Shown in pieces: positions 7,424-29,343 of a DNA stretch of 39,309 nt (position 1 is the first letter of the stretch; the number at the start of each line of letters is the position of its first letter). Position numbers and translations under genes: made by a program. The DNA is taken from NCBI GenBank assembly GCA_028288125.1, contig JAQBOH010000178.1, forward strand, positions 1-39,309, given 5' to 3'. The notes under the pieces were generated by a model. That model searched no databases. It was not told where the DNA came from and saw nothing but the letters and a program-made list of their open reading frames with translations. The DNA is from Mucilaginibacter sp. (GTDB lineage Bacteria; Bacteroidota; Bacteroidia; Sphingobacteriales; Sphingobacteriaceae).

Positions 7424-8755
7424 ATGATAAATCGTCGTAAGTTTCTTCAAACCACATCTGTAGCAGGCACAAGTTTCCTGCTGGCGCCGCATTTAGGTAA
7501 AGCGGCAGGATTTTTTAGCGGGTCGCCGAACGAAAAGGTGGTCATCGGTATGATGGGTACCCATAGCAGGGGCGCATACCTTGCTCAAAATTTTGCTAAA
7601 AATCCAAATGTCGAGATCGGCTATATATGTGATGTTGATTCACAGGTAGTGGATAAAACCGTAGCCGACATATATAAACGCACCGGCAAAAAACCACAGG
7701 GAGTAACCGATATCCGCAAGCTGCTCGAGAAAAAAGATGTGGACGCTATTGTGATAGCTGCCCCCGACCATTGGCACGCCCCGGCAACTATAATGGCTTG
7801 CCAGGCCGGTAAACACGTATATGTTGAAAAACCATGCAGCCATAACCCCCACGAGGGCGAAATGGCGGTAGCGGCTTCAAAAAAATATAACCGCCTGGTG
7901 CAGATGGGCAGCCAGCGCCGCTCATTCGCCAACGTACAGCGCATGGTGAAGGAACTGCACGACGGCGTTATTGGCCGTACTTACTACGCAAAAGGCTGGT
8001 ACACCAATCACCGCGCATCTATCGGTATTGGCAAGCCTGCGGCTGTACCCGCCAACCTGGATTACGAACTTTGGCAGGGCCCCGCGCCGCGTAAGCCTTA
8101 CCAGGACAATTTGATCCATTATAACTGGCACTGGTTCTGGAACTGGGGAACCGGCGAGGCATTAAATAACGGCACTCATGAGCTGGACGTCATCCGCTGG
8201 GGTTTGGGGGTTGATTTCCCAAGCAAGGTGGTTTCAACCGGCGGCCGGTTTCATTTTAAGGACGATTGGCAAACACCTGATACCCAAAATATACTCTATA
8301 ATTTCCCCAACGATACCGCAGCCGAATGGGAGGGAAGAAGCTGCAATGGGTTTAACATCGAAGGTTTGGGCCGCGGTGTTATCTTTTACGGCGACAAAGG
8401 AACCGTTTTTTATGAGGGCGGAAATGGTTACAAGGTTTACGACGGCGACAATAAATTCGTGAAAGAAATAAAAGACAACACCATTGTAGACGCCACAAAC
8501 AAGGTAAGCCCAACAGAAGCCTTAGATGGCATGCACATGAATAATTTTGTGGACTCGGTGCGCGGTGTAACAAAACTAAACTGCCCGATTGAAACAGGCT
8601 TCAAATCAACCCTGCTGCCGCAATTGGGCAACATATCCTACCGTGTTGACCGTGTGCTGCATATCGACACATCCAGCGGACATATTTTAAACGACCCCGA
8701 AGCGATGAAGCTTTGGAGCAGAACGTATGAAAAGGGGTGGGAAGTGAAGGTGTAA
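7424..8755 (+). CDS. Gfo/Idh/MocA-family oxidoreductase with Tat-type signal
   Basis: 443 residues. An N-terminal twin-arginine signal (NRRKFLQTTSVAG) predicts export in folded form with cofactor. A Rossmann NAD(P) fold follows, with GMMGTHSRG (42-50), the AAPDHWH segment (112-118) and the family lysine in EKPCSHN (135-141). The C-terminal half is the alpha/beta substrate domain rich in Trp and His (HYNWHWFWNWGTGE). Members oxidise or reduce sugars and cyclitols; some secreted Bacteroidota members act on glycosides at C3. The next gene is a DUF1080 protein, supporting a 3-keto-sugar role by context. Confidence 0.92.
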   Translation: MINRRKFLQTTSVAGTSFLLAPHLGKAAGFFSGSPNEKVVIGMMGTHSRGAYLAQNFAKNPNVEIGYICDVDSQVVDKTVADIYKRTGKKPQGVTDIRKLLEKKDVDAIVIAAPDHWHAPATIMACQAGKHVYVEKPCSHNPHEGEMAVAASKKYNRLVQMGSQRRSFANVQRMVKELHDGVIGRTYYAKGWYTNHRASIGIGKPAAVPANLDYELWQGPAPRKPYQDNLIHYNWHWFWNWGTGEALNNGTHELDVIRWGLGVDFPSKVVSTGGRFHFKDDWQTPDTQNILYNFPNDTAAEWEGRSCNGFNIEGLGRGVIFYGDKGTVFYEGGNGYKVYDGDNKFVKEIKDNTIVDATNKVSPTEALDGMHMNNFVDSVRGVTKLNCPIETGFKSTLLPQLGNISYRVDRVLHIDTSSGHILNDPEAMKLWSRTYEKGWEVKV

Positions 8756-8760
8756 AAAAA

Positions 8761-8834
8761 ACCTTTCCCCTCTTTTCGGCTTGCGGAAGAGAGGTGGTCC
8801 AGCGAAGCAAAGACCGGGTGAGTCAACTCTACGA
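8761..8834. repeat. GAGTCAACTCT-type intergenic repeat (copy 1)
   Basis: Contains CCTCTTTTCGGCTTGCGGAA, GAGAGGTGGTCCAGCGAAGC and GGGTGAGTCAACTCT. Related sequence lies at 37791-37857 and 38455-38505, with an overlapping GATAGCTATCGGG piece at 29281-29296. It is a dispersed noncoding element starting within ten bases of a stop codon. Confidence 0.65.
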
Positions 8835-8917
8835 GCGATAAGTAGAGATACACCATGCTGAGGTAGGAAAAAAACCAACAAGAAAATATCTAAACTAAAT
8901 AAACCGAATATAATACC

Positions 8918-10288
8918 ATGAAAAAGCTAAAAACTAATGCAATCATAATTCTGCTTGCTATTTTCATCTTACCATTAATAGCCAATGCTCAAAGCACACC
9001 CGGCCTGTTTGATGGCAAAACCCTTAAAGGCTGGAAACGCCTGGCCGGCAGGGCGGATTATAAAGTGGAAAACGGCGAAATAGTAGGCACAACCGTTTTA
9101 AATTCAGGAAATACCTTCCTGGTAACAGAAAAAGAATACGGCGATTTCATCCTTGAAATGGATACCAAAATCGAAAGCCCGCTAAGCAATTCGGGTGTAC
9201 AAACCCGCAGTCATTACAATCCGGCCGGACATGATGGAAAAGGAAAAGTTTATGGCAGGCAGTTTGAGATCGATCCTTCAGACCGTAGATGGTCGGGTGG
9301 TATTTATGATGAGGGCAGGAGGGAGTGGCTATACCCGGTTGATCTGAACCAAAAAGCGAAAGACGCCTTTAAAGTTGGGATTTATAACCATATCCGGATA
9401 GAATGTATCGGCAACGAAATGAAGACCTGGGTCAATGGCGTCGCTGTCGCGGATGTGGTAGATACGGTTGACAGTAGAGGTTTTATCGGCTTACAGGTGC
9501 ATGCGGTAACCAAACCGGAGCAAGCGGGCAAAAAAGTGTATTTTAAAAATATCCGTATTCAAACGGCTAATCTGGTACAAAAACCTTTTCCGAAAGACAT
9601 CTATGTGGTAAATTTTATGCCCAATAAACTTTCGGCGCATGAAAAGGAAAGTGGCTGGAAGCTGCTTTATGACGGACATACTGCAAGCGGCTGGCGCGGC
9701 GCCACGATGACCACGTTTCCTGCCAAGGGCTGGGAATACACCAATGGGGTGATGCACGTATTGCCATCCGCAGGTAAGGAGGAGTCAGGCGGCGGGGATA
9801 TTGTGACGACAGATATGTACGGTGCATTTGACTTGTCTTTTGAATTTAAACTGACGCCGGGGGCCAATAGCGGTGTAAAATATTTTGTCACCCTGTCAGA
9901 AGTTACAAAGGGATCGGCAATAGGCCTTGAATACCAGGTGCTGGATGATGAGCTTCATCCCGACGCCAAGCTGGGCCGCAACGGCGACCGGACGCTGGCA
10001 TCCGTATACGACCTGATCCCGTCAAATAAACCCAAGCGCTTTATCAGGCCCATTGGCGCCTGGAATACCGGGAGGATAGTCGTTTACCCCAATAATCACG
10101 TTGAGCATTACCTGAACGGCATTAAAGTGCTTGAATATGAAAGAGGCTCAAAGGAGTTCCGTGATTTAGTGGCCATGAGCAAATACACCATCTGGAAAAA
10201 CTTCGGCGAAGCAAAAGAAGGGCACTTGTTATTGCAGGATCATGGTAATGAGGTGTTTTTCAGAAGTATTAAAGTAAAAACATTATAA
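8918..10288 (+). CDS. Secreted double-DUF1080 protein (3-keto-disaccharide hydrolase type)
   Basis: 456 residues with a signal peptide (MKKLKTNAIIILLAIFILPLIANA). Two tandem DUF1080 (concanavalin-like, PF06439) domains are visible: one starting at LFDGKTLKGW with a late VYFKNIRI strand, the second starting at LLYDGHTASGWRG with VFFRSIKV at the end. Each has the NSGV segment (SNSGVQTRSHYN, ANSGVKYFV). The family includes 3-keto-disaccharide hydrolases and glycan-binding or hydrolysing proteins. It follows the Gfo/Idh/MocA gene on the same strand, so oxidation at C3 followed by cleavage is a reasonable joint role. Confidence 0.88.
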   Translation: MKKLKTNAIIILLAIFILPLIANAQSTPGLFDGKTLKGWKRLAGRADYKVENGEIVGTTVLNSGNTFLVTEKEYGDFILEMDTKIESPLSNSGVQTRSHYNPAGHDGKGKVYGRQFEIDPSDRRWSGGIYDEGRREWLYPVDLNQKAKDAFKVGIYNHIRIECIGNEMKTWVNGVAVADVVDTVDSRGFIGLQVHAVTKPEQAGKKVYFKNIRIQTANLVQKPFPKDIYVVNFMPNKLSAHEKESGWKLLYDGHTASGWRGATMTTFPAKGWEYTNGVMHVLPSAGKEESGGGDIVTTDMYGAFDLSFEFKLTPGANSGVKYFVTLSEVTKGSAIGLEYQVLDDELHPDAKLGRNGDRTLASVYDLIPSNKPKRFIRPIGAWNTGRIVVYPNNHVEHYLNGIKVLEYERGSKEFRDLVAMSKYTIWKNFGEAKEGHLLLQDHGNEVFFRSIKVKTL

Positions 10289-10291
10289 TCA

Positions 10292-10372
10292 GACACGATT
10301 TTTAGGATTTGAGGGATTTTAAGATTATTGCTAATTCATCATTTAAATCTCTCAAATCCTAAAAATCGTGTT
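10292..10372. terminator. Inverted repeat between convergent genes, probable bidirectional terminator
   Basis: The left arm (GACACGATTTTTAGGATTTG and on) and right arm (10345-10372, ending CTAAAAATCGTG) are nearly perfect inverted copies of about 27 bases around an AT-rich loop. The right arm ends exactly at the cydB stop and the left begins four bases after the DUF1080 stop. It also looks like one of the word-repeat families. Confidence 0.65.
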
Positions 10373-11385
10373 CAGACAAGCTCATTCTTTTTCTGAAAAC
10401 TATAAAACAGGTAAAATAGCGAAGGCAAGATCAGCACGCTGCCGATCAAAAGCCCTAAACCCAGATCCTCGATGGTTTTAGCCGGGGCATGATTGGCGAG
10501 CAGGGACAGGTTTTGCCCGCCTTTAACCATTATTAAATTGGGGAAATGGGTGTAACCAACTGACAACAGGATCATGGTTACCTGGAATGCTGCAAACACA
10601 CGGATGATTTTCTTCTTCCCATAATAGATAAATAACCACAGCACCAGTAATGAAATGGCTGCTGATATTACGGCTGTAAGGCTTATTGCATTGCCAAAAA
10701 TCCAATGCGCCAGGCGGATGTTCTCTATTTCGGCGGCTATAAATACCAATCCGCCAAAAATAACCACCAGGATGTTCATGATACGGGCTTTCCGGACAAA
10801 CCGCTGCCTTTCATTATCATCTTCGGTTTCGCCGATCAGGTATACCGCAGCAAGGTAGCCGCTTAGCGCGACGGTGAATAAACCTACTGTTACTGAAAAC
10901 CAGTTTAGCCAGCTATAAATATAAGCATCCATGAAAGATGTAGCCTGCAGATTGATTTGCCCTGATATAGCGCTACCGGCAATAATGCCCAGAAACAACG
11001 GGGTAACAAAGCTGGAATAAACGAAAATGCGGTTATAAAAGCCTTGAGTTTTATCATCCTTGATCGCGTCATAATTCCTGAAAGCGAAGGCAGTTCCGCG
11101 GGCAGTGATGCCAAGCAGCATAATAAGCAGCGGGATGTGCAGGTAGGTACACATATTGCTGTAGATATCGGGGAACCCCACAAATAATATCACAACTGTA
11201 ATGATAAGCCACATATGGTTTGCTTCCCAAATAGGGCCGATGGCATGGTACATGGTTTTGCGCGTCCGGTCTTTATTCCGGTCGGATGTAAAAAGCTCAA
11301 TAATACCTGCTCCAAAATCAGCCCCGCCAAGCAGAAAATAGAGCACGATAGCCAAAAACAGAAAAGCAATAACGATATACAGCAT
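10372..11385 (-). CDS. cydB: Cytochrome bd quinol oxidase subunit II
   Basis: 337 residues, polytopic inner-membrane protein. The N-terminal segment with FLLGGADFGAGIIELFT and GPIWEANHMWLI is diagnostic of CydB. About eight or nine hydrophobic helices follow. Together with CydA it forms the high-affinity, non-proton-pumping terminal oxidase for low oxygen. It starts four bases after the cydA stop, so the two are co-translated. Confidence 0.95.
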   Translation of the reverse strand: MLYIVIAFLFLAIVLYFLLGGADFGAGIIELFTSDRNKDRTRKTMYHAIGPIWEANHMWLIITVVILFVGFPDIYSNMCTYLHIPLLIMLLGITARGTAFAFRNYDAIKDDKTQGFYNRIFVYSSFVTPLFLGIIAGSAISGQINLQATSFMDAYIYSWLNWFSVTVGLFTVALSGYLAAVYLIGETEDDNERQRFVRKARIMNILVVIFGGLVFIAAEIENIRLAHWIFGNAISLTAVISAAISLLVLWLFIYYGKKKIIRVFAAFQVTMILLSVGYTHFPNLIMVKGGQNLSLLANHAPAKTIEDLGLGLLIGSVLILPSLFYLFYSFQKKNELV

Positions 11386-11389
11386 AAGC

Positions 11390-12703
11390 TTAATTTACTT
11401 TATCATATAACTGAGGCACCATTTTTATTTGCCTGCTTAATAGAAATATCACGGCAATGCTTAACGTAAAATAAATAACAGTAAACAGGTAAAATGAGTA
11501 ATGAATGCCTGGCATAGGCGTTACCGCCTCGCTGGTGCGCATCACGCCTTGTATGATCCATGGCTGCCGGCCTACTTCTGTTACCGTCCATCCGGCTTCC
11601 ACGGCTATAAATCCCAGCGGCGTCGACAGAATGAACAGGTTAAGAAACCATTTTTTTGAAAGCCAGCTTCGTTTTTTCCACAAGGCAACAAAATACAATA
11701 GCCCTATCAGCATTATAGCCGATCCAATCGTTATCATTAAATCAAAAGCCAGGTGGGTAATTGTAATGGGCGGCTGGTCTTTTACAGGAATTTTATCCAA
11801 TCCGTTAACCGGATTCTTAAAGTTATCGTTCACCAGGAAGCTTAACAAACCGGGTATTTCAATGCCATATTTTACCTTTTTATTGGCCGTATCGGCAACC
11901 CCGCCAAGAACCAGGGGCGCATACTGCCGGGTGTGAAAATAGGCCTCCATGGCGGCTAATTTGGCAGGCTGCCGTCTCGCCGCGTTCCTGGCAGACAGGT
12001 AGCCGCTGAAAGGTTGTATAATTGCTGCTGCCGCGCCGAAAACGACAGCTATTTTAAAGGCTTTGGTATGAAATTGAATATTTTTCTTTCGTGCGATCAT
12101 CAGCGCATGGATGCCGGCAACGGCAAAGCCTGTGGCTGCAAAAGCAGCTATGGTCATATGCAATGATTCTGAAAACCATGAGCCGTTGAACATGGCTTTG
12201 ACGGGATCGATGTTCAGGTATTGCCCGTTAACGTAATCGAAACCCGAGGGGCTGTTCATCCATGAGTTGGCGGACACCACCAAAATACCCGAAGCAATAC
12301 CACTTATGCCTACTATAATTCCGGTGCACCAATGGAACCAGTTATTGAACCTGTTCCATCCGTACAGGAAAAATCCGAGCGCTATGGCTTCTATAAAAAA
12401 TGCCACGCCTTCCAGTGAAAACGGCATTCCGAATATCGGCCCTGCATGTTCCATGAACTTTGGCCATAACAGCCCGAGTTCAAAAGACAATATAGTGCCC
12501 GATACGGCGCCGGTCGCAAAAAATATAGCTACGCCCTTGCTCCACGCCTGTGTAATATTTTTATAAACGGGATTGCCGGTTTTTATCCATTTATAATGGG
12601 ATATAGCCATAAAGACAGGCATAACCATGCCAATGCAGGAGTATACGATATGAAAACCCAGCGATATGGCCATTTGCGACCGTGCGGCAATAAAATCATT
12701 CAT
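11390..12703 (-). CDS. cydA: Cytochrome bd quinol oxidase subunit I, short Q-loop type
   Basis: 437 residues. Haem ligands and key residues align with Escherichia coli CydA: His18 in GFHIVYS, Glu98 in PFSLEGVAFF, His182 in SESLHMT, Met323 in FDLMITIG, the quinone-site Lys248/Glu253 in AKLAAMEAYF, and GRQPW (378-382). The loop after AMEAYF is short, so this is the short Q-loop class found in many Bacteroidota and Firmicutes. No cydX-like small subunit is seen downstream of cydB. A TATATTTG promoter box lies 27 bases upstream of the ATG. Confidence 0.95.
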   Translation of the reverse strand: MNDFIAARSQMAISLGFHIVYSCIGMVMPVFMAISHYKWIKTGNPVYKNITQAWSKGVAIFFATGAVSGTILSFELGLLWPKFMEHAGPIFGMPFSLEGVAFFIEAIALGFFLYGWNRFNNWFHWCTGIIVGISGIASGILVVSANSWMNSPSGFDYVNGQYLNIDPVKAMFNGSWFSESLHMTIAAFAATGFAVAGIHALMIARKKNIQFHTKAFKIAVVFGAAAAIIQPFSGYLSARNAARRQPAKLAAMEAYFHTRQYAPLVLGGVADTANKKVKYGIEIPGLLSFLVNDNFKNPVNGLDKIPVKDQPPITITHLAFDLMITIGSAIMLIGLLYFVALWKKRSWLSKKWFLNLFILSTPLGFIAVEAGWTVTEVGRQPWIIQGVMRTSEAVTPMPGIHYSFYLFTVIYFTLSIAVIFLLSRQIKMVPQLYDKVN

Positions 12704-12880: not shown

Positions 12881-13435
12881 TTGAAACGGCTGTTTGCCAT
12901 TGTATTATTGAGTGTTCACCTGTTTAGTATAGGGGGGTATACTTTATTGTTTCAATATTATATCCACCAGTCCGATGTGCAGATGGTGAAGCAGATATTC
13001 GATAATAAAATTGATGAAACAAAGCTGCTCGAAATAAAAATCCCTGTTCATTTTCCTACCATGACAGACTGGACCGAATATGCGGTGGTTGAAGGTCAAA
13101 TCCAATTAAAAGATGCCTACTATAACTACGTCAGGCTTAAAATGACGCGGGATACCATGTTTTTCATCTGTATTCCCAATACAGCTAAAACACGCCTTGT
13201 ACAGGCTAACATTATTACCGCCAAAGAGATAAGTGATGTACCGCTTACTAAAAAAGGGCACGACGCCTCCTTTAAAAAGGTAAATACGCTTAGCGAATAT
13301 AATTTAAAGACTTTCCATTATAATTATTCAGGGATTGCAAAACTACTTGCCTCTGAAAGTACTCAATCTGCCTCGCTGAAACTCTGCAGGCCTTATATTG
13401 AATCCCCGGGTAAACCGCCCAATTTTATCAGTTAA
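12881..13435 (+). CDS. Small membrane-targeted or secreted protein of unknown function
   Basis: 184 residues starting with TTG (no in-frame ATG before the hydrophobic segment). MKRLFAIVLLSVHLFSIGGYTLLF is a signal peptide or membrane anchor. The remainder (LEIKIPVHFPTMTDWTEYAVVEGQIQ and onward) looks like a periplasmic beta-rich domain. It is divergent from cydA and precedes the barrel and haloperoxidase cluster by 233 bases. Proteins of this look occur beside outer-membrane transport genes in Bacteroidota, but no family name can be given. Confidence 0.7.
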   Translation: MKRLFAIVLLSVHLFSIGGYTLLFQYYIHQSDVQMVKQIFDNKIDETKLLEIKIPVHFPTMTDWTEYAVVEGQIQLKDAYYNYVRLKMTRDTMFFICIPNTAKTRLVQANIITAKEISDVPLTKKGHDASFKKVNTLSEYNLKTFHYNYSGIAKLLASESTQSASLKLCRPYIESPGKPPNFIS

Positions 13436-13668
13436 ACTGCTTTATAAACCATTTTGCTGTCTCATTTAATGAGGCCGTATATTCAATTTTGGTTATAGCC
13501 GGAATATCGCTTGCATTGTGTCATTGATGTTTCTCCCTATAATACGTTTTTGAAGGTTTAACGCAGTATCTCTATTGTTGATCATGCTCATTTGACGTTG
13601 TGTACATCATGTTGCAGCTAATCGTATCAACACCTTAACTGGTTTTTATTTACTTTTTATTTTTAAAG

Positions 13669-14604
13669 ATGATGAAATCATTACCATTATTTTTATACAG
13701 GTGCTGCCTGATATTTTGCTCGTGTCTGGCTTTTTCGGAAATAGCCAGTGCCCAAACAGATGCAGATGCATTGATGATACCCAAAAAATTTTATTGCGCC
13801 GGGGTTTTGTACACCAATAGTAGCTGGACAAATTATTGGGAGGGCGCTTATAAGCGCGACAACGGCAACATAGGTAAATTGTCGACCAATATATATACCC
13901 TTATAGGTAATTATGGCCTGACAAATAAACTGGATATTTTGTTTTCGGCGCCTTATGTTACAACTAATGCCTCCTCCGGCACCTTAGCTGGTCAGCACGG
14001 GTTGCAGGATATAACGCTTACACTAAAATGGCTTGCATTCCAAAGTCAAATAGGAAAGGGTATTATTAGTATGCATGCCATTGCCAGCGGATCGATACCG
14101 TTAAGTAACTACGAAGCCGATTTTGAACCTGTGTCAATAGGCTTGCATAGTAAATCGGTAGCTATTCGCGGGTTGGTCAATTACCAAACCGGGAGGTTTT
14201 TTATCGCCGGGGCAGGCCAATATGTGCGGCGTAATGATATAATCATTGACAGGAATTCTTATTACACCACGCAGCTTGTCTATAGCAACCAGGTTGATAT
14301 ACCCAATGCCAATAATTTTATTGTCAGCAGCGGTTACCGTAGCCTGAGATTTAATGCCGAGGCGATTTTTTCGCAAACTACAACGCTGGGCGGTTTTGAT
14401 ATCCGGAAAAATGATATGCCGTTCCCAAGCAACACCATGAATGCCACTACGGCCGGGGCGCTTTTCAAATACAGTTTTTCCAATTCGGGCCTTGAACTCA
14501 CCGGAGGCGGAAATTATGTGTTAAAAGGACGGAATGTTGGCCAGGCCGCCACTGTGTTTGGCGGTGTATTTTATTTATTTGATTTTAATAAAAAAACGAA
14601 ATAA
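13669..14604 (+). CDS. Outer-membrane beta-barrel protein, phenol-degradation MetA-like transporter family
   Basis: 311 residues with a signal peptide ending near ASAQTDAD. The body shows alternating hydrophobic beta strands with a NKLDILFSAPYVTTNASSG type early segment, GSIPLSNYE, and a terminal strand FGGVFYLFDF, typical of PF13557-like barrels that carry small organic compounds. The start is MM; the second ATG (13672) is equally possible. The stop is seven bases before the next ATG, so it is an operon with the haloperoxidase-like gene. Confidence 0.7.
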   Translation: MMKSLPLFLYRCCLIFCSCLAFSEIASAQTDADALMIPKKFYCAGVLYTNSSWTNYWEGAYKRDNGNIGKLSTNIYTLIGNYGLTNKLDILFSAPYVTTNASSGTLAGQHGLQDITLTLKWLAFQSQIGKGIISMHAIASGSIPLSNYEADFEPVSIGLHSKSVAIRGLVNYQTGRFFIAGAGQYVRRNDIIIDRNSYYTTQLVYSNQVDIPNANNFIVSSGYRSLRFNAEAIFSQTTTLGGFDIRKNDMPFPSNTMNATTAGALFKYSFSNSGLELTGGGNYVLKGRNVGQAATVFGGVFYLFDFNKKTK

Positions 14605-14611
14605 TACGACG

Positions 14612-16168
14612 ATGAAAAAACGAATACTTTATATGATGCCGCCGTTAGTAATAGCCGCATTAGTTTTTTTCGGGTCTTGTAAAAAAGGGGTGATTGACCG
14701 CACAACGCTTTACCCGGTGCTTAACCCCGCAAATATTGACCTGAATGCTGATACCTGGAAACCTATTTTAATTACCAATGCAAGTGCGTTTAACGTAGCC
14801 GCCCCCGACGCGATCGCATCACCGGCTTATGTAGCAGACCTGAACGAGATAAAGGCCCTGCAAAGTAATTTAAGCAGCGATCAAAAAGCGACTATTAAAT
14901 ACTGGAGTGCCGGCGCCGTGTTGCGCTGGAACGAAATTTTGCGCGACCTGATAGCGAAGCACAATTTGCCACCATATCAAAATGCAGACGGAAGCTATCC
15001 GGCGCCAAATTCGGCCAACCCTTTTGCATACCCGCAATTTCCATTTTCCAATCCGCCGTATGCTGCCCGCGCGTATGCCTACGTGAGCGCTGCTCAATAT
15101 GATGCCCTGGTTGCGGCTTACTATTTTAAAAAGCTGTATAACCGCACTGCACCGTATACAAATGACCCCGCAGTACAGGCGCTGGTGCCAAAATCAGCCT
15201 TGCCATCGTATCCCAGTGAAGATGCCGTGGTGGCCGGAGCCACTGTAGAGATGATGAAATTGTTATTCCCGACCGAAATTCCTTTTATTGAGCAGAAAGC
15301 TGCCGAGGAAATGCAGTACCGTTTAATGGCAGGTGCAAATGTTCGCGGCGAACTCAACGCCGGTCAATCGCTCGGCACCCAGGTTGCCGATGTTTTTGCC
15401 GCCCGCGCACGAGCCGACCGTGCTGGTAAAGCAATTGGGACATCTGCACAATGGGCGCTGTTACCTGCACATGCAACTACACGGGGCGACCAGGCCTGGA
15501 TAAGCCTCGAATCGCCGCAACGCCCCCCAATGCTGCCTTTGTTTAATAAGGTATTGCCGTTTTTATTTGATACGCTTACGGTAGTGAAATTACGTCCCGG
15601 GCCGCCAAATATGGCTGGTTCTGTCGCATTTAACCAGGAGGCGGCCGAAGTGCTGTCGTATAGTAAAAATTCGACTCGCGGGCAGCAGGCAATTGTTGAG
15701 TTTTGGGCTGACGGGGCTGGTACCTATACGCCGCCGGGGCATTGGAACGCCATTGCCGCCGATGAATTTGTAAAGCAAAATTACAGCGAGGTACGCTGGG
15801 CGCGCAACCTGGCTTTATTGAATATGGCCGAAATGGATGCAGCGATCGTCTGCTGGGATACTAAATACTTCTATTTTAACCAGCGCCCATCGCAGGCTAA
15901 CCCGAATATTAAAACATTAACCGGCATACCTAATTTTCCGTCATATTCTTCCGGGCATTCTAACTTTAGCGGAGCGGCATCAACCATATTAACTTACTTG
16001 CTTCCGGATAGAGGAACGAAGTTTACCGACATGGCCAACCAGGCAGCAATGTCAAGGCTGTATGGAGCTATTCATTACCGTAGCGATTGCGAAGTAGGTT
16101 TGGTCACCGGCAACGCCGTAGGGCAGTATGCTGTAAAAAGAGCGCAAACCGATGGAGCCGGGAATTGA
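14612..16168 (+). CDS. Vanadium-dependent haloperoxidase-like PAP2 lipoprotein
   Basis: 518 residues. The ATG at 14612 is chosen because it starts a lipoprotein signal (MKKRILYMMPPLVIAALVFF, lipobox FGSC, Cys23); the frame is open upstream but that part overlaps the previous gene. The C-terminal half carries all PAP2/vanadate-binding motifs: KYFYFNQRP, SYSSGHSNFSG and SRLYGAIHYRSD. The N-terminal half is the long helical part seen in bacterial vanadium haloperoxidase-like proteins. It may oxidise halides or act as a phosphatase; the sequence does not decide. It sits between two barrel proteins. Confidence 0.85.
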   Translation: MKKRILYMMPPLVIAALVFFGSCKKGVIDRTTLYPVLNPANIDLNADTWKPILITNASAFNVAAPDAIASPAYVADLNEIKALQSNLSSDQKATIKYWSAGAVLRWNEILRDLIAKHNLPPYQNADGSYPAPNSANPFAYPQFPFSNPPYAARAYAYVSAAQYDALVAAYYFKKLYNRTAPYTNDPAVQALVPKSALPSYPSEDAVVAGATVEMMKLLFPTEIPFIEQKAAEEMQYRLMAGANVRGELNAGQSLGTQVADVFAARARADRAGKAIGTSAQWALLPAHATTRGDQAWISLESPQRPPMLPLFNKVLPFLFDTLTVVKLRPGPPNMAGSVAFNQEAAEVLSYSKNSTRGQQAIVEFWADGAGTYTPPGHWNAIAADEFVKQNYSEVRWARNLALLNMAEMDAAIVCWDTKYFYFNQRPSQANPNIKTLTGIPNFPSYSSGHSNFSGAASTILTYLLPDRGTKFTDMANQAAMSRLYGAIHYRSDCEVGLVTGNAVGQYAVKRAQTDGAGN

Positions 16169-16216
16169 AAACAAAGAAATTAAAAATTACACACAACAAT
16201 TAAATCAATCAATACA

Positions 16217-17305
16217 ATGAAATCTATATTAAAAACCCTTTTAGGAATTTGCATATTTATACTATTTAATCACTTCGATATTTTCGCGCAAGGCTGCGTA
16301 GCCATCCGGAGCACCGGCGGTATTTGCGCTATGAATGAGCATCCCGACAGTACCGCTACATCGGCCGGATACTGGCTGTATAACAGCAACAACCGTTATT
16401 TTAAATCATTCAGGCACTTTGTGGGTAAGGCCGAACAGTATCAGCGATTTACCCTGCACAATAACGTTATCAATAAGGTGTTTACCCAGGACAACTCTTT
16501 CACCCGCATATTGAATAACCGTTGGTCGGTAACCCTGGATGTGCCGTTTGCAGATAACAGCCGGTCGCAGGTTAGCAGCGGCACCCGCTTTAGCACCCAC
16601 TCATTCGGTATAGGTGATATTAGTGTAACAGGCTTTTACTGGCTGTTTAATCCCGCGAAGGCGACAAAAGGCAATATCCAGGTTGGCCTGGGCGTAAAAT
16701 TCCCGACAGGGGAGTCAAACTACCAGGATTATTTCCTGAACGGCGCAACCGGGGCGAGAACCCTTGGGCCGGTTGACCAGTCGATACAACTGGGAGATGG
16801 CGGCACAGGCATTGAACTGAATGTAAACGCCTACTACAATTTTACCCATAGTTTCGGCTTCTACGGTAATTTCTTTTACCTCGCCAACCCGCGGGATGTC
16901 AACCCGACCCTCCGCTCACAAAATCCGCCAAGCGCCACAACAATAGCTGCCACAGGCGATGTTTTAAGTGTGCCCGATCAATACCTCATCAGGTTTGGCG
17001 CGGGCCTGGCTGTTAAGAAATTTGATTTTTCATTAGGGGTACGTGATGATTGCCTGCCGGTACATGATCTTGTTGGCGGCAGCGATGGGTTCAGAAGGCC
17101 TGGTTATATTATATCTGCCGAGCCCGGCGTATCTTATCGCATAAAAAATATTTCGCTTTACGCATATGTGCCAATAGCCATTATCCGCGACCGTACACAA
17201 AGCGTACCCGACATCAGGACTACGCAAATAACCGGCACTTACACGCATGGCGATGCCGCTTTTGCGGATTATGTTGTCAATGTTGGGGTGACTGTAAAAT
17301 TTTAA
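16217..17305 (+). CDS. Outer-membrane barrel protein, second of the haloperoxidase cluster
   Basis: 362 residues with signal peptide MKSILKTLLGICIFILFNHF ending near FAQG. Features include a Cys-containing N-terminus (GCVAIRSTGGIC), GLGVKFPTGESNYQD, which resembles the plug or early strand of phenol-MetA-like transporters, and a last strand ending VVNVGVTVKF with terminal Phe, the classical outer-membrane assembly signal. It follows the haloperoxidase-like gene by 48 bases and is closed by a strong intrinsic terminator. Confidence 0.75.
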   Translation: MKSILKTLLGICIFILFNHFDIFAQGCVAIRSTGGICAMNEHPDSTATSAGYWLYNSNNRYFKSFRHFVGKAEQYQRFTLHNNVINKVFTQDNSFTRILNNRWSVTLDVPFADNSRSQVSSGTRFSTHSFGIGDISVTGFYWLFNPAKATKGNIQVGLGVKFPTGESNYQDYFLNGATGARTLGPVDQSIQLGDGGTGIELNVNAYYNFTHSFGFYGNFFYLANPRDVNPTLRSQNPPSATTIAATGDVLSVPDQYLIRFGAGLAVKKFDFSLGVRDDCLPVHDLVGGSDGFRRPGYIISAEPGVSYRIKNISLYAYVPIAIIRDRTQSVPDIRTTQITGTYTHGDAAFADYVVNVGVTVKF

Positions 17306-17331: not shown

Positions 17332-17367
17332 AAAAGCCGGGTTTGAGATACCCGGCTTTTTATTTTT
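17332..17367 (+). terminator. Intrinsic terminator after the haloperoxidase cluster
   Basis: AAAAGCCGGGT, a short loop, ACCCGGCTTTT then TATTTTT. The -33 element of the next operon lies in its loop, so the terminator and the RidA promoter are nested. Confidence 0.85.
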
Positions 17368-17374
17368 ATGTTTG
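17342..17374 (+). promoter_or_regulatory. Promoter of the RidA operon
   Basis: TTTG (17342-17345), 21 bases, then TATGTTTG (17367-17374), matching the Bacteroidota consensus. The ATG follows 16 bases downstream, giving a very short leader. Confidence 0.6.
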
Positions 17375-17390
17375 TTTATATTATAATCAA

Positions 17391-17855
17391 ATGAACACTG
17401 CCGACCAAAATTTTGCTGAAACAGGGCTAACCCTGCCACCCGCGCCTAAACCATTGGGTGTTTATAAACCTTGCCTCATTGATGGCAAATATCTGTATAT
17501 CTCGGGACATGGAACCGTACAGGATGATGGGAGCTTAATCGTTGGCCGCATTGGCGACACCATGACCGCCGAGGAAGGCAAGCTGGCAGCCCGGCAGGTG
17601 GGCCTGGCTATATTATCGACAATAAAAACGAACCTGGGCAGCCTTGATAAAATCAAAAGAGTGATCAAGGTGTTGGGGATGGTCAATTGTACGCACGATT
17701 TTGAAAAACACCCGTTCATCATCAATGGCTGCAGCGAATTGTTTGCCAAAGTTTGGGGCGAAGACAATGGAGTAGGCGTGCGCAGCGCCGTGGGCATGGG
17801 CTCGTTGCCGGGCAATATCCCGGTGGAAATAGAGGCTTTATTTGACCTCTTTTGA
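17391..17855 (+). CDS. RidA/YjgF-family protein (imine/enamine deaminase family)
   Basis: 154 residues from the ATG at 17391; the frame is open 16 codons further but that would overlap promoter and terminator. Recognised by GKYLYISGHGTVQDDGS, the NLGSLDKIKRVIKVLGMVNC segment and the C-terminal VEIEALFDL. It is the longer RidA subgroup, in which the classical catalytic Arg is often absent; here the region reads GVGVRSAVGMGSLPGNIPVEIEA, so one Arg is present. RidA proteins hydrolyse reactive 2-imino acids released by PLP enzymes. The gene next to it encodes exactly such an enzyme, 32 bases downstream. Confidence 0.88.
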   Translation: MNTADQNFAETGLTLPPAPKPLGVYKPCLIDGKYLYISGHGTVQDDGSLIVGRIGDTMTAEEGKLAARQVGLAILSTIKTNLGSLDKIKRVIKVLGMVNCTHDFEKHPFIINGCSELFAKVWGEDNGVGVRSAVGMGSLPGNIPVEIEALFDLF

Positions 17856-17887
17856 GGATGACTTCACAGTCCTAAACTATAGATAAC

Positions 17888-19033
17888 ATGACTCAGGACT
17901 TAAAACTTAAGACTTCGGACTTAATAACAAACTGGTATCACATTAACAACGTTGATGAATTAGACACGCCCGTGCTGGTGGTTTATCCCGATAGGGTTAA
18001 AGCAAATATTGAGGCTGTAAAGGGTATGATAAGCGATGTGTCGCGATTGCGGCCGCATGTCAAAACAAATAAGAATAAAGAGGTTACCCGGTTGATGCTT
18101 GAAGCAGGTATCAGCAAATTTAAATGCGCCACCATCGCTGAAGCAGAAATGCTGGCTATGTGCGAAGCGCCCGACGTTTTGTTAGCCTATCAGCCTGCCG
18201 GGCCTAAACTGACCAGGTTTGTTAAACTGATTACATCTTATCCAAATACCAGGTTCGCCTGCCTCGTTGACAACTTCATTTCCGCTACCGAAATTTCAGC
18301 AGCCGCTGAAAAAGATAAAATTCAAATACCCGTCTATATCGACCTGAACGTAGGGCAAGACCGGACAGGGATAGCGCCAAGTGAAAAAGCTTTACAACTT
18401 TATGCAGATTGTGGCCGGTTACCCGGGATAAAGCCAATCGGGCTGCATGCCTATGACGGGCATCTTCATGATGCAGACATTGAAATCCTTACAAAAAAAT
18501 GCAATGCCGGTTTTGAACCGGTAGTAAAACTGAAGGCCAAAATAATAAAAGAAGGCTTCCCCGAGCCGCTTATCATTGCCGGCGGCTCGCCAACATTTCC
18601 CGTACACGCAAAAAGAGAAAATGTGGAATGCAGCCCGGGCACGTTTGTTTATTGGGACAGGGGTTATCAGCTCATTGCTAGTGAGCAGCCATTTATACCC
18701 GCCGCGCTGGTTGTTTCAAGGGTAATATCGTGGCCGTCTGAAACTAAAATTTGCCTTGACCTGGGGCATAAATCGGTCGCTGCTGAAAATGAGCTGCACA
18801 AACGGGTTTACTTTTTAAATGCGCCCGAGCTGGTCATGATCAGCCAAAGCGAGGAGCACCTGGTAGCAGATGCCGGCAAAGGCCATACATACAAGATTGG
18901 CGATGTGCTTTACGGCTTGCCCCATCACATTTGCCCGACGGTTGCCCTGTATGAACGGGCCATCACCATCGAAAATAATCAAACAACCGGCGAGTGGAAA
19001 AATATCGCCAGGGACCGTAAAATAACTATTTAA
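17888..19033 (+). CDS. D-serine dehydratase / D-threonine aldolase-like PLP enzyme
   Basis: 381 residues, alanine-racemase-fold PLP enzyme. The PLP lysine is in RPHVKTNK (Lys59). The C-terminal metal site reads HHICPT with His347 and Cys349, the His-x-Cys pair of zinc-dependent D-serine dehydratases (aldolases usually have His-x-Asp), so dehydration of D-serine or a related D-hydroxy amino acid is favoured. The first 14 or so residues (MTQDLKLKTSDLIT) are encoded by a word repeat and precede the usual start of the family (WYxI...DTP); no other in-frame start is available. It lies between RidA and an M19 dipeptidase. Confidence 0.88.
   Translation: MTQDLKLKTSDLITNWYHINNVDELDTPVLVVYPDRVKANIEAVKGMISDVSRLRPHVKTNKNKEVTRLMLEAGISKFKCATIAEAEMLAMCEAPDVLLAYQPAGPKLTRFVKLITSYPNTRFACLVDNFISATEISAAAEKDKIQIPVYIDLNVGQDRTGIAPSEKALQLYADCGRLPGIKPIGLHAYDGHLHDADIEILTKKCNAGFEPVVKLKAKIIKEGFPEPLIIAGGSPTFPVHAKRENVECSPGTFVYWDRGYQLIASEQPFIPAALVVSRVISWPSETKICLDLGHKSVAAENELHKRVYFLNAPELVMISQSEEHLVADAGKGHTYKIGDVLYGLPHHICPTVALYERAITIENNQTTGEWKNIARDRKITI
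17891..17928. repeat. ACTTAAGACT-type word repeat at a gene start
   Basis: Repeating GGACTTAAAACTTAAGACTT and CGGACTTAATAAC directly behind the ATG. The same word family occurs at 32482-32533 as four tandem units. Here it is translated as the N-terminus of the D-amino-acid enzyme. Confidence 0.75.
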
Positions 19034-19116
19034 GCTGAAAGCAAAAAGACCAAAGCAAAAAGCAATTTTTTGATAACTTATAGCTCAATCAACTTAATCC
19101 AACCTAATCAACCAAT
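19032..19116. repeat. Two word repeats between the D-amino-acid enzyme and the dipeptidase
   Basis: Immediately at the TAA stop comes AAGCTGAAAGCAAAAAGACC AAAGC (the word of 312-399). At 19082-19116 comes CTCAATCAACTTAATCC followed by AACCTAATCAACCAAT (the GATTAAG family in inverse orientation), ending four bases before the next ATG. Together they fill the 87-base gap. Confidence 0.75.
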
Positions 19117-19120
19117 ACTC

Positions 19121-20191
19121 ATGTTCACGATAGATGCCCACTTAGATCTCAGCATGAACGCCCTTGAATGGAACCGCGACCTGCGGAGGCCGGTTTTGGA
19201 AATTAACCGGCGTGAACAGGGTTTAAACGATAAACCGGATCGTGGCAAGGCAGTTGTTTCATTGCCCGAATTGCGAAAAGGTAATATTGGACTGGTGGTT
19301 GGCACGCAGATAGCACGTTATGTGGCTCCCGGAAACCCGTTGCCGGGCTGGCACTCGCCGGAGCAGGCTTGGGCGCAAACCCAGGGACAGCTGGCATGGT
19401 ACAAAGTCATGGAAGAAGATGGAGAAATGGTGCAGGTTAATAATTTGCAAAGCCTGGAAAAACATCTCAAATTTTGGAATGATGGAACACCCAATGACAG
19501 AAAACCCATCGGTTATATCTTAAGCCTGGAGGGAGCTGATTCAATAATTTCTATTGACTATTTGGAACGCGCTTACAATGATGGGCTGCGCGCCATTGGC
19601 CCCGCACATTACGGCCCCGGCCGTTATGCCAATGGTACCGATGCCACCGGAAAAATGGACAAGGAGGGACACGAATTACTAAGAGAAATGGAGCGCCTTA
19701 ATATCATTTTAGACGCCACCCACCTATGCGACGATGCCTTTTGGGACGCGCTGGATCATTTCAACGGGCATATATGGGCAAGTCATAATAATTGCAGGAC
19801 TTTGGTTAACCACAACAGGCAATACAGTGATGAGCAGATAAAAGAGCTGGTAAGCCGCGGCGCGGTAATCGGCGCGCCATTGGATGCCTGGATGATGGTG
19901 CCCGGATGGGTGCGTGGGAAATCAGACCCCAAAGAAATGAATTGCAGTCTCGGAGTAATGATTGACCATGTCGATCATATTTGCCGGATTGCGGGTGATA
20001 CCTTACACGTGGGGATAGGCTCAGACCTGGATGGTGCCTTTGGGCGCGAACAATGCCCTTACGACCTGGAAACAATCGCGGGCCTTCAAACTATTCCCGG
20101 ACTTTTAAAAAAACGGGGCTATTCTGACGAGGATGTTATGAATTTTATGCACGGCAACTGGCTCCGGTTTTTGAGAAACGCGTGGACTTAA
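19121..20191 (+). CDS. Membrane-dipeptidase family (M19) metallopeptidase
   Basis: 356 residues from the ATG at 19121, the start that gives the conserved MFTIDAHLDL with metal ligands His7 and Asp9. An upstream open stretch is repeat-derived and is excluded. Further M19 segments are YILSLEGADSI (bridging Glu), LDATHLCDDAFWDAL, WASHNNCRTL and HVGIGSDLDGAFG. No signal peptide, so cytoplasmic. M19 enzymes cleave dipeptides, including those with C-terminal D-residues, which would supply the D-amino-acid enzyme encoded just upstream. Confidence 0.92.
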   Translation: MFTIDAHLDLSMNALEWNRDLRRPVLEINRREQGLNDKPDRGKAVVSLPELRKGNIGLVVGTQIARYVAPGNPLPGWHSPEQAWAQTQGQLAWYKVMEEDGEMVQVNNLQSLEKHLKFWNDGTPNDRKPIGYILSLEGADSIISIDYLERAYNDGLRAIGPAHYGPGRYANGTDATGKMDKEGHELLREMERLNIILDATHLCDDAFWDALDHFNGHIWASHNNCRTLVNHNRQYSDEQIKELVSRGAVIGAPLDAWMMVPGWVRGKSDPKEMNCSLGVMIDHVDHICRIAGDTLHVGIGSDLDGAFGREQCPYDLETIAGLQTIPGLLKKRGYSDEDVMNFMHGNWLRFLRNAWT

Positions 20192-20683
20192 AAAGTGTCA
20201 ACTACCTCCAGGACGACACCCGCGACAAAAAGTGCAACAACATAGCCAGCTTTATATACCGGAGTCGCTACGGACACTGATTTTCTGATTAAGAAATTGT
20301 AAATTTTTGAACAAGTTTTTCAACTGATAGTAAATATTTCATTTTTCACTTGCAAATGTGATGAGAATTATTGAAATTTGTTACGTCAATCGAAATTGCT
20401 GTAGATTAACATTAATTATATGGCAAATTCAACGACCAGTAAGTTTATTTTAATAACAAATACTGATCGCCCTTTTAAGCCCTTTCCCCTTTTAATTGAT
20501 TTATAATTAGTAGTAGTTTCCTCCACAATTGGCATAACTGCCAAAGCCGGTCCCTCACCCTAAACTATTGAAATTTTAACTTAATCCATTAGTCAATATT
20601 TGACTTGGGTTCAGGAATTTTACCCTAAAACTTTTGCGGGCAATTTCTGTTGTTAATATTCTGTTGTTGTAATTTATCAGGCT
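20192..20683. other. Intergenic region upstream of the universal stress gene
   Basis: 492 bases with no convincing gene. Just after the dipeptidase stop is a TGTCAACTACCTCCAGGAC segment that resembles an insertion-sequence end, but no partner end was found. The middle is AT-rich. A 16-base palindrome lies at 20529-20544. A TTGAC at about 20600 and TAAAACTTTTG some 21 bases later resemble, but do not match, a promoter. Confidence 0.5.
20529..20544. promoter_or_regulatory. Palindromic candidate operator upstream of uspA-like gene
   Basis: TTGGCATAACTGCCAA is a perfect 6-4-6 palindrome about 140 bases before the start codon, with the size of a dimeric repressor or activator site. Confidence 0.3.
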
Positions 20684-21544
20684 ATGAGAAATATATTACT
20701 ATTTATCGATGATTCGACAAAGGCTGAGAGCTTGGCCAAGAAAGCCCTAAAGGTTGCCCGGCAGTGCAGGGCTAACCTGCAGCTATGCAGTGCTGTAAAA
20801 ACCAGGGTGCAGAAAAATTTACTTGTTCATCATTTTGATGATGAAGTATCATTCGAAGAAGCAGAAAGCTTCGACCTGCAGAAATTGGCGCTGAAATTAA
20901 AGCATATAGATTATCCCGAAGGCACTTACCACCCGGCGATCAACTGTGTGGAGATGCTTAATTTTAATCCTGCGACTGTTCGCGAGATGGTGATCCGGCA
21001 CAATGTGTGGATGGTAATAATGGGTGAACAAAACCTCGACCAGTTAAAAAACGCGGATACTTTCAATTTCGCCATTAAAATGATCAACAATATCAATTGC
21101 CCGGTTTTAGTGATGCCCGATAAATTTGATATGAGCTATTTCAGCAGGGTGGCTTATATAACCGACCTGCGTTATTGCGATATTGGGGTGATCAGGTTTT
21201 TAAAGGTTTTAAATGCACAATTATTTGTTACCCATATTTCGGCGCCGGGACTGCCCGACCTGGAAGAGCGTTACGCGCAGGATATTTTATCCGAAGAAAT
21301 ATCTGTAAAGGCCAATTATCAGAAAATATTTTTAAGGAATATAAAAAACAAAAATATCAAAGGCGCGATTGACTATGTTGTTGATACGGTTGATGTAAAG
21401 ATGCTGGCCCTGGTCAACAAAAAGCACCAAACCATTGAACGGCTATACGATAATTACGCTGAGAAGACCCAGATTTATCAGCAATTGCCGGCATTGATAT
21501 TTCCTTATTTGAACTGGTTTAACCAAGCCTCATTCTACGAATAG
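20684..21544 (+). CDS. Universal stress protein family, tandem-domain type
   Basis: 286 residues. The first Usp domain starts MRNILLFIDDSTKAESLAKKAL with VREMVIRHNVWMVIMGEQ as its penultimate strand and a CPVLVMPDKF end. The second half (MSYFSRVAYITDLRYCDIGVIRFLK and onward) is a degenerate second domain. Neither half has a clear GxxGxn(9)GS ATP-binding loop, so it is likely a non-ATP-binding Usp. Cytoplasmic; conditions of expression unknown. It is followed by an intrinsic terminator, so it is probably monocistronic. Confidence 0.75.
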   Translation: MRNILLFIDDSTKAESLAKKALKVARQCRANLQLCSAVKTRVQKNLLVHHFDDEVSFEEAESFDLQKLALKLKHIDYPEGTYHPAINCVEMLNFNPATVREMVIRHNVWMVIMGEQNLDQLKNADTFNFAIKMINNINCPVLVMPDKFDMSYFSRVAYITDLRYCDIGVIRFLKVLNAQLFVTHISAPGLPDLEERYAQDILSEEISVKANYQKIFLRNIKNKNIKGAIDYVVDTVDVKMLALVNKKHQTIERLYDNYAEKTQIYQQLPALIFPYLNWFNQASFYE

Positions 21545-21573
21545 AATAAGTTGTTAGTAGTTTTTCTCATATT

Positions 21574-21605
21574 GGCCCTGCGATTTTAATCGCGGGGCTT
21601 TTTTT
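21574..21605 (+). terminator. Intrinsic terminator after the universal stress gene
   Basis: GGCCCTGCGATTTTAATCGC then GGGGC and a run of T. The stem CCCTGCGATT/AATCGCGGGG is followed by seven T. Confidence 0.85.
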
Positions 21606-21629
21606 ATGCCGATACTTAATTATTACTTT

Positions 21630-21718
21630 GTCATTCTGAGCATCGCGAAGAATCTTCTCCACCTAATAAGTCTCCTGCGTGTCTGTTTTAGAAGATTCTT
21701 CGCGATGCTCAGAATGAC
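21630..21718. repeat. Large perfect inverted repeat (GTCATTCTGAGC family)
   Basis: Arms at 21630-21658 and 21690-21718 are 29-base perfect inverted copies beginning GTCATTCTGAGCATCGCGAA, with a 31-base loop. GTCATTCTGAG...GAAGAATC words are widespread intergenic repeats in Bacteroidota and other genomes. It lies between the Usp terminator and the glucosidase gene. Confidence 0.9.
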
Positions 21719-21859
21719 AAACGATAAGGTTATGGTTTTAAACATCTCTATATCTCCACGCAATTAACGATCAAACTTTGGTAAAATAATGGCAAAGATT
21801 ACTGAGATTTACCAGGCCTGATGTATTTGGAAATTCAGGATAACCTTCTATAATTTTAC

Positions 21860-29178: not shown

Positions 29179-29268
29179 GGTTCGTTTTCTTTTTTGAATT
29201 AATGTTTCAGTGATACCAGCCTTTATCAATGGCTGTTCCAAACAGGGCGTGGTGGACAAATTGGCAGA

Positions 29269-29318
29269 TGCCCCCTCTAACCCGATAGCTATCGGGTCTC
29301 CCCCCGGCAGGGAGACCT
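29269..29318. repeat. GATAGCTATC and GGTCTCCC hairpin repeat
   Basis: The palindrome CCCGATAGCTATCGGG (29281-29296) overlaps a second stem GGTCTCCC/GGGAGACC. The GATAGCTAT(C/T)GGG word also occurs within 37791-37857. It lies between htpG and the FMN reductase gene. Confidence 0.75.
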
Positions 29319-29343
29319 TCAAATACCTTTGTTACTAAACAAA

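Follow-up and report, generated by a model that had tools for sequence, protein, structure and literature searches.

A predicted outer-membrane channel paired with a vanadium-haloperoxidase-family lipoprotein in Mucilaginibacter: a possible import-and-modify cassette

The window examined here is the whole of a 39,309-nucleotide (nt) stretch from Mucilaginibacter sp. (contig JAQBOH010000178.1, positions 1 to 39,309 of the forward strand; assembly GCA_028288125.1, 3.42 Mb in 206 contigs, ~80% complete). It contains a cassette of four genes on the + strand, designated S, B1, V1 and B2. S (12881..13435) encodes a 184-amino acid (aa) protein with a single N-terminal membrane helix, a TTG start, a small beta domain and a disordered tail. 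After a gap of 233 nt follows B1 (13669..14604), whose 311-aa product is predicted to be a 12-stranded outer-membrane channel with the COG4313/Phenol_MetA_deg fold. V1 (14612..16168) begins 7 nt further on and encodes a 518-aa lipoprotein of the vanadium haloperoxidase family, and 48 nt separate it from B2 (16217..17305), encoding a 362-aa second outer-membrane barrel that is PF13557/FapF-like. A previous sequence-only reading of this DNA had placed four open reading frames (ORFs) in this order and on this strand, and all four are there. The order is more than a product of chance, for it recurs in dozens of genomes. Comparison of these genomes shows that B1-V1 is the unit, with B2 more loosely attached and S a leader shared with TonB-receptor loci.

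Among 80 named-genome loci kept from 116 relatives, B1 lies directly upstream of V1 in all 79 that extend that far. The median gap between the two is 4 nt for the ORFs as called, V1 ORFs often being over-extended into B1. In a phylum sample of 148 genomes drawn evenly, V1 (>400 bits) occurs in 14 and B1 (>100 bits) in the identical 14, adjacent in all of them by coordinates (Fisher p 4.6e-17). Stretches fetched later, from genomes that partly overlap the phylum sample, exhibit the same pattern, B1 being directly upstream of V1 in 24/24. The sequence-only reading would have been undermined by barrel and haloperoxidase genes that do not co-occur elsewhere; for B1 and V1, co-occurrence is what both the close relatives and the phylum sample revealed. 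Its notion of a fixed four-gene set, however, did not survive, for B1-V1 is constant whereas B2 comes and goes and S also belongs to TonB-receptor loci. Of the 57 loci that extend over 6 kb upstream of V1, 52 have S within five genes on that side, and S is within six genes of V1 in 18 of the 24 V1 loci among the later stretches. B2 lies up to four genes upstream or three downstream of V1 in 50/80 loci, short contigs included. The typical Mucilaginibacter order is S-B1-V1-(DoxX-like)-B2, where the DoxX match falls below its cut-off. The Chitinophagaceae-type order is S-V2-(B2)-B1-V1, in which V2 is an enzyme of the type of Zobellia galactanivorans VIPO1, and V1 and V2 thereby share some cassettes. 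The loose attachment of B2 and S would be expected if the genes were chance neighbours sharing an operon without any functional link. For B1-V1 this is already contradicted by a pairing that is complete in the samples and recurs in several families and at different genomic sites, and we find the idea scarcely credible. The host itself is closest to Mucilaginibacter, its nearest named relative having a V1 that is 94% identical (L006). A search of 72,556 plasmid records with V1 returned 31, all below 60% identity; the best among the ten matches listed covers 92% of the protein at 29.8% identity.

V1 carries the three motifs of its superfamily. Motif 1, K418-x6-R425-P426, lies inside CWDTKYFYFNQRP (15863..15889, + strand), motif 2 is S447-G448-H449 (15950..15958, +), and motif 3 is R482-x5-H488-x3-D492 (16055..16087, +). 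In 41 aligned sequences K418, R425, P426, S447, G448 and H449 are invariant, and R482, H488 and D492 are present in 40, the remaining row being truncated. The earlier claim that V1 has the full vanadate/phosphate motifs is therefore borne out, with K-x6-RP, SGH and SR-x5-H-x3-D all present and conserved in the aligned relatives. We take these residues to be the vanadate-binding pocket of the family. Because the tripartite motif is common to phosphatases, it cannot by itself separate a peroxidase from a phosphatase. PAP2 is the sole Pfam family to pass its cut-off for V1 (2.6e-14); VCPO_2nd reaches 21.1 bits against a curated cut-off of 27, which one V2 protein (L066) clears with 28.9 bits. The best solved relative is the Zobellia vanadium iodoperoxidase VIPO1 (PDB 4cit/4usz), matched by V1 with E 1.6e-20 in two stretches spanning residues 147-510. 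A profile of the 41 V1 sequences scores 94.1 bits against 4cit and 46.4 bits against the top acid phosphatase. Residues 147-467 of V1 align with 4cit residues 58-386, an alignment that appears to reach the N-terminal helical bundle beyond the PAP2 core. A CWDxKY element before motif 1 is common to V1 and 4cit and missing from the one phosphatase aligned, and a P-[PG]-[GA]-H-W element is common to V1, V2 and 4cit and lies outside the stretch aligned with the phosphatase. Judged by sequence, V1 is on the haloperoxidase side of the superfamily.

The strongest alternative is that V1 has the body of a haloperoxidase but works as an acid phosphatase. At the outer membrane it would dephosphorylate a small or lipid-like molecule, such as a sphingoid or polyprenyl phosphate, with B1 passing the substrate or the product. 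PAP2 acid phosphatases (7f17, 1d2t, PhoN) possess the tripartite motif in the C-terminal part, they match the V1 profile, and PAP2 is the only family to clear its cut-off. The aspartate of H-x3-D is also kept in 40/41 V1 sequences, as in the aligned phosphatase, while 4cit has Ala after the catalytic His. However, the phosphatases are shorter (217-261 aa), score half as high as 4cit and match V1 only from residue 323, compared with residue 147 for 4cit, and CWDxKY is confined to the V1-4cit pair in this comparison. We consider a phosphatase unlikely, although the choice between haloperoxidase and phosphatase chemistry for V1 is by assignment to a sequence family and is unproven.

Within the haloperoxidases, V1 resembles VIPO1 in the vanadate-pocket residues, in CWDxKY and in an alignment that extends into the N-terminal part, but it is longer (518 aa versus 458 aa) and carries Asp in place of Ala after the catalytic His. 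The close relative of VIPO1 is V2. The V2 profile matches 4cit with E 1.8e-163 and 547.8 bits, against 8.2e-26 and 94.1 bits for the V1 profile, and because V1 scores so far below V2 we do not place it in the VIPO1 subfamily. V1 and V2 align over 327 columns, from V1 residue 148 on. Of 20 aligned V2 sequences, 14 have cysteine in place of the serine of SGH, a change that might modify or eliminate activity. The likeness to VIPO1 raises the possibility of a halide system, in which B1 and B2 would be the entry route for iodide or bromide (or for hypohalous acid), to be oxidised by V1 for iodine uptake or against neighbouring organisms, by analogy with Zobellia and Arenibacter. The nearest solved relative of V1 is an iodoperoxidase, the iodine-accumulating Arenibacter C-21 has, in the accessible text of the report, at least five PAP2 genes homologous to the Zobellia iodoperoxidase (PMC5064120), and one iodoperoxidase, vIPO3, is described in the portion of the study available as up-regulated in Zobellia on a brown alga (PMC9296495). 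However, V1 is distant from VIPO1, and most of the hosts with a name belong to Mucilaginibacter or the Chitinophagaceae, for which halide-poor habitats are suggested by the names only. Ordinary porins should also pass halides. We therefore regard a halide system as improbable.

The longest ORF around V1 opens at 14534, inside B1, and the start of V1 is the ATG at 14612, 78 nt further in. The aligned start is ATG in 90/90 V1 genes, those aligning from model position 1 or 2. With the start placed at 14612, V1 has a signal peptide and a lipobox cysteine, Cys23 (14678..14680, + strand), which is Cys in 40/41 aligned proteins. In the part of the source available, the surface-lipoprotein export signal of Capnocytophaga is C-X-K-(D/E)2-X (PMC5080379). 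The window protein reads CKKGV from the lipobox cysteine on. C-x-[KR] is present in 79/81 V1 proteins (window included), with K at +3 in 75 of the 79, and an acidic residue at +4 or +5 in only 40 proteins. The acidic pair occurs in none of the 78 V1 motifs listed, and none of them thus carries the export signal. V1 is probably anchored in the outer membrane and more likely exposed to the periplasm than to the surface, a judgement tempered by the export signal having been defined for Capnocytophaga.

The B1, B2 and S proteins of the window gave no Pfam match at E<=1 and no NCBIfam match. PF13557 (Phenol_MetA_deg) is matched at E<=0.1 by 11 of 52 aligned B1 proteins (best 1.7e-10) and by 3 of 25 aligned B2 proteins (best 4.8e-7). 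An AlphaFold2 model of B1 from the 52-row alignment (pLDDT 81.6, pTM 0.76) is most similar to the COG4313 channel Pput2725 (4rl8), with a Foldseek E of 4.0e-11 and a VIA Z of 24.9 (rmsd 2.3 over 246 residues). The two are of similar length and both 12-stranded, but identity is 15%; the count of twelve strands in B1 is our reading of the listed model elements, with the last long strand counted as two. By predicted fold, B1 is a 12-stranded COG4313-type outer-membrane channel. The sequence-only reading had called both barrels phenol-MetA-like. This stands by way of the PF13557 matches of their relatives and of the B1 model against a crystal structure, though not for the window proteins taken alone, which are below the reach of Pfam. 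The alignment of the B1 model with 4rl8 opens at model residue 31 and chain residue 2. COG4313 channels are described, in the part of the source available, as 12-stranded barrels with an inserted N-terminus that are implicated in the uptake of hydrophobic molecules, examples being TcpY for trichlorophenol and SphA for sphingosine (PMC4493636). SphA lends some weight to the phosphatase alternative for V1. The known channels described there adjoin aromatic-degradation genes or take up sphingosine and, unlike B1, are not beside a haloperoxidase gene (PMC4493636, same portion). The envelope system had been proposed to move a small aromatic or halide substrate; the COG4313 fold is consistent with a channel for molecules that are small and either hydrophobic or aromatic.

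The profile of B2 matches the amyloid exporter FapF (5o65, 5o67, 5o68) with E 2.3e-5, and its mature N-terminus contains QGCVAI, conserved at 90% or more. Comparison of the B1 and B2 profiles gave an hhalign probability of 8%, which leaves a sister relationship unsupported by sequence. B2 is a second barrel of the same broad kind as B1, gained and lost separately. The B1 model likewise has FapF in second place, with Z 23.8 and 13% identity, raising the possibility that the barrels are FapF-like and form an export device that secretes a peptide or the product of V1. The uptake-type channel 4rl8 ranks first for B1, however, and no recurrent cassette gene was recognised as a secreted substrate among the part of the neighbours that was scanned; no amyloid subunit gene was recognised nearby, with no search aimed at one. 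S, moreover, mostly leads TonB receptors elsewhere. Export seems to us decidedly improbable.

S had been described as a small membrane-targeted protein with a TTG start ahead of the barrels, and closer analysis agrees. A TAA stop abuts the TTG in frame, so no start exists further upstream. Across 134 S genes, from a sampling of loci that overlaps, the codon at model position 1 is TTG in 68, GTG in 32, ATG in 25 and another codon in 9; TTG or GTG is thus used in 100/134, whatever gene follows. An in-frame ATG occurs within six codons in only 4 of the 103 S genes with TTG, GTG or CTG at position 1. We read position 1 as the true start rather than a residue within the protein, because the codon is almost only NTG and hardly ever any other leucine codon. 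V1, treated alike as a control, gave ATG in 90/90. Neither barrel was usable as a control, since few B1 genes align from position 1 (9/10 ATG) and the B2 model does not open at the start codon (17/58 ATG, mixed codons). The conserved non-ATG start may limit the dose of S. The S model (pLDDT 74.6) consists of a helix at 2-40, four strands, a helix at 101-118 and a low-confidence tail, and Pro-Pro occurs within the last 12 residues in 47/47 aligned members. Pfam gave scattered weak matches across these 47 proteins, with at most two members for any family. We claim no fold relative for S because Foldseek found none at E <= 0.001 and the best VIA Z is 5.7. Alignment of 44 S-B1 gaps revealed no well-conserved block.

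We initially assumed that S is specific to the haloperoxidase set, and a class survey ruled this out. In 395 genomes, S is present at E <= 1e-10 in 43, and neighbours were surveyed for 44 S genes of at least 30 bits in 40 stretches. The gene directly downstream is a TonB receptor in 27 of the 44, B1 in 6, and B2, V2 and a VCBS gene in one each; another gene follows in 5, and in 3 there is none or one on the opposite strand. The predominance of TonB receptors favours import over export. Five receptors were scanned, one located after V1 (L073) and the other four from S loci. Models of heme/hemoglobin or siderophore receptors come closest for four of the five, and PqqU for the remaining one, with all scores below curated cut-offs. 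At the locus of the PqqU-like receptor (L185) the next genes are nearest to heme- or B12-type ABC transporters, again below cut-offs. A search of the PDB with one TonB receptor of an S locus found nothing at E <= 0.001; the plug region of another matches heme, colicin I and B12 receptors. At three places (L127, L128, L186) S stands beside AhpD-like peroxidase-related genes, of which the one scanned against NCBIfam is just below the peroxidase-related cut-off. This is a redox context and speaks against the phosphatase alternative, at three places only. In our reading, S marks outer-membrane import loci more generally, and this weighs most in our preference for import over export.

Exchange of genes at fixed sites separates B1-V1 from B2. 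Between infB and cstA we find S-B1-V1 (L143), S-B2 (L125, L161, L167) and S-B1-V1-B2 (L170, L180), the last also with one extra ORF (L169). In another family, B1-V1 (L145, L147) and B2 (L124) occur between the same neighbours, an aldehyde-dehydrogenase gene (n7) and n19. B2 lies beside the same aldehyde-dehydrogenase gene in L122 and L123, with n15 on the other side, and L122 then joins the block n11, n12, n16. L168 reads S-B1-V1-x-S-B2, giving each barrel its own S. These variants indicate that B1 and V1 were gained and lost together at these places, with B2 either taking their place or joining them. Of 98 genomes sampled from a single family, 29 have V1, 31 have B2 and 15 have both (Fisher p 0.0085). 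Among 36 B2 genes in the later stretches, S is directly upstream of 15 and within six genes of 27.

A terminator-like hairpin (17332..17360, + strand) with 11 pairs and a T-rich tail lies 3' of B2. It has the longest stem in the list for the region, and stem length is all that singles it out; hairpin-type sites number 10 against a shuffled mean of 7.0 (sd 2.4), near background. Promoter-like sites in the region were not above shuffled sequence. Downstream (17343-24457) are RidA-like, D-threonine-aldolase/BhcC-like, M19 dipeptidase and GH63/MGH1-like genes, and members of these RidA/aldolase/M19/GH63-like clusters are found around V1 in between 31 and 34 of the 81 loci, the window among them. 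Upstream, genes for cytochrome bd oxidase subunits II and I (10372-12703) are divergent from S, and in some Mucilaginibacter loci (e.g. L007, L011, L019) a Sulf_transp (YeeE/YedE-type) gene pair lies between them and S. Beyond these (7424-10288) lies a possible 3-keto-glycoside unit, made up of a GFO/IDH/MocA oxidoreductase gene and, after it, a gene whose product has two 3-keto-disaccharide hydrolase stretches. An HSP90-family gene (27295-29322, - strand) has a TTG start on its longest ORF. GH65, trehalase and other sugar genes around the Chitinophagaceae cassettes could point to a sugar substrate; such genes are also found around V2 away from V1, and none lies directly around the Mucilaginibacter cassettes looked at. 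In 10 of 11 loci with V2/VIPO1-type genes away from V1 (L129-L138, L166), the stretch has a VCBS/FG-GAP, GH65 or sugar-transporter-like gene; L134 is the exception, and two of the loci (L137, L138) belong to the genome of the window. Transporter and fructokinase, as names of V2 neighbours, come from reading, not from a scan.

Taken together, we favour an outer-membrane import-and-modify cassette in which a small-molecule channel feeds an outer-membrane-anchored haloperoxidase, a reading we hold to be plausible if somewhat short of probable. B1 would be the route by which a small hydrophobic or aromatic molecule passes the outer membrane. Held at that membrane next to the pore and carrying vanadate, V1 would use H2O2 and a halide to oxidise or halogenate the entering molecule in the periplasm or, less likely, at the surface. 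B2 may serve as a substitute or further pore, for this substrate or one related to it, and S, present in few copies in the inner membrane, may assist or limit the pore from there. More doubtful is the specific proposal that B1-V1 is a dedicated 'oxidising gate', a COG4313-type pore with a tethered vanadium haloperoxidase, in which exchangeable barrels (B1-V1 or B2) work on the common partner S, made at a low level through its non-ATG start.

Several observations count against an import-and-modify cassette. The substrate, halide use and vanadate binding are all putative, D492 is kept as in the aligned phosphatase, and acid phosphatases share the motif and match the profile. B2-only cassettes occur at a B1-V1 site, and the barrels rather than the chemistry could be the point. 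In the phylum sample, three weaker B1-like genes (55 to 90 bits) are in genomes without V1, only 8 of the 14 genomes with V1 have S close to it, S not being V1-specific, and B2 is in 10/148 genomes and near V1 in only 3. Of the 15 genomes of the one family that have both V1 and B2, only 5 have them close together, and 21 of the 36 later B2 stretches have neither V1 nor V2, one or the other being present in 15.

A literature search of partial coverage found no description of the S-B1-V1-B2 set or of the B1-V1 pairing. The gene families are already known; the union of B1 with V1 and its exchange with B2 are new as far as this search reaches. Vanadium haloperoxidases of bacteria have been associated chiefly with marine halogen chemistry and natural-product pathways. 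S is in addition a small leader protein, shared widely and with a non-ATG start that is conserved, standing ahead of several kinds of outer-membrane protein gene. The conserved pairing of channel and enzyme suggests that small molecules may be chemically altered while they cross the outer wall of the cell. If the 'oxidising gate' proposal is true, the cassette would be a widespread and so far unrecognised way for soil Bacteroidota to halogenate or detoxify small aromatic or hydrophobic compounds in the periplasm.

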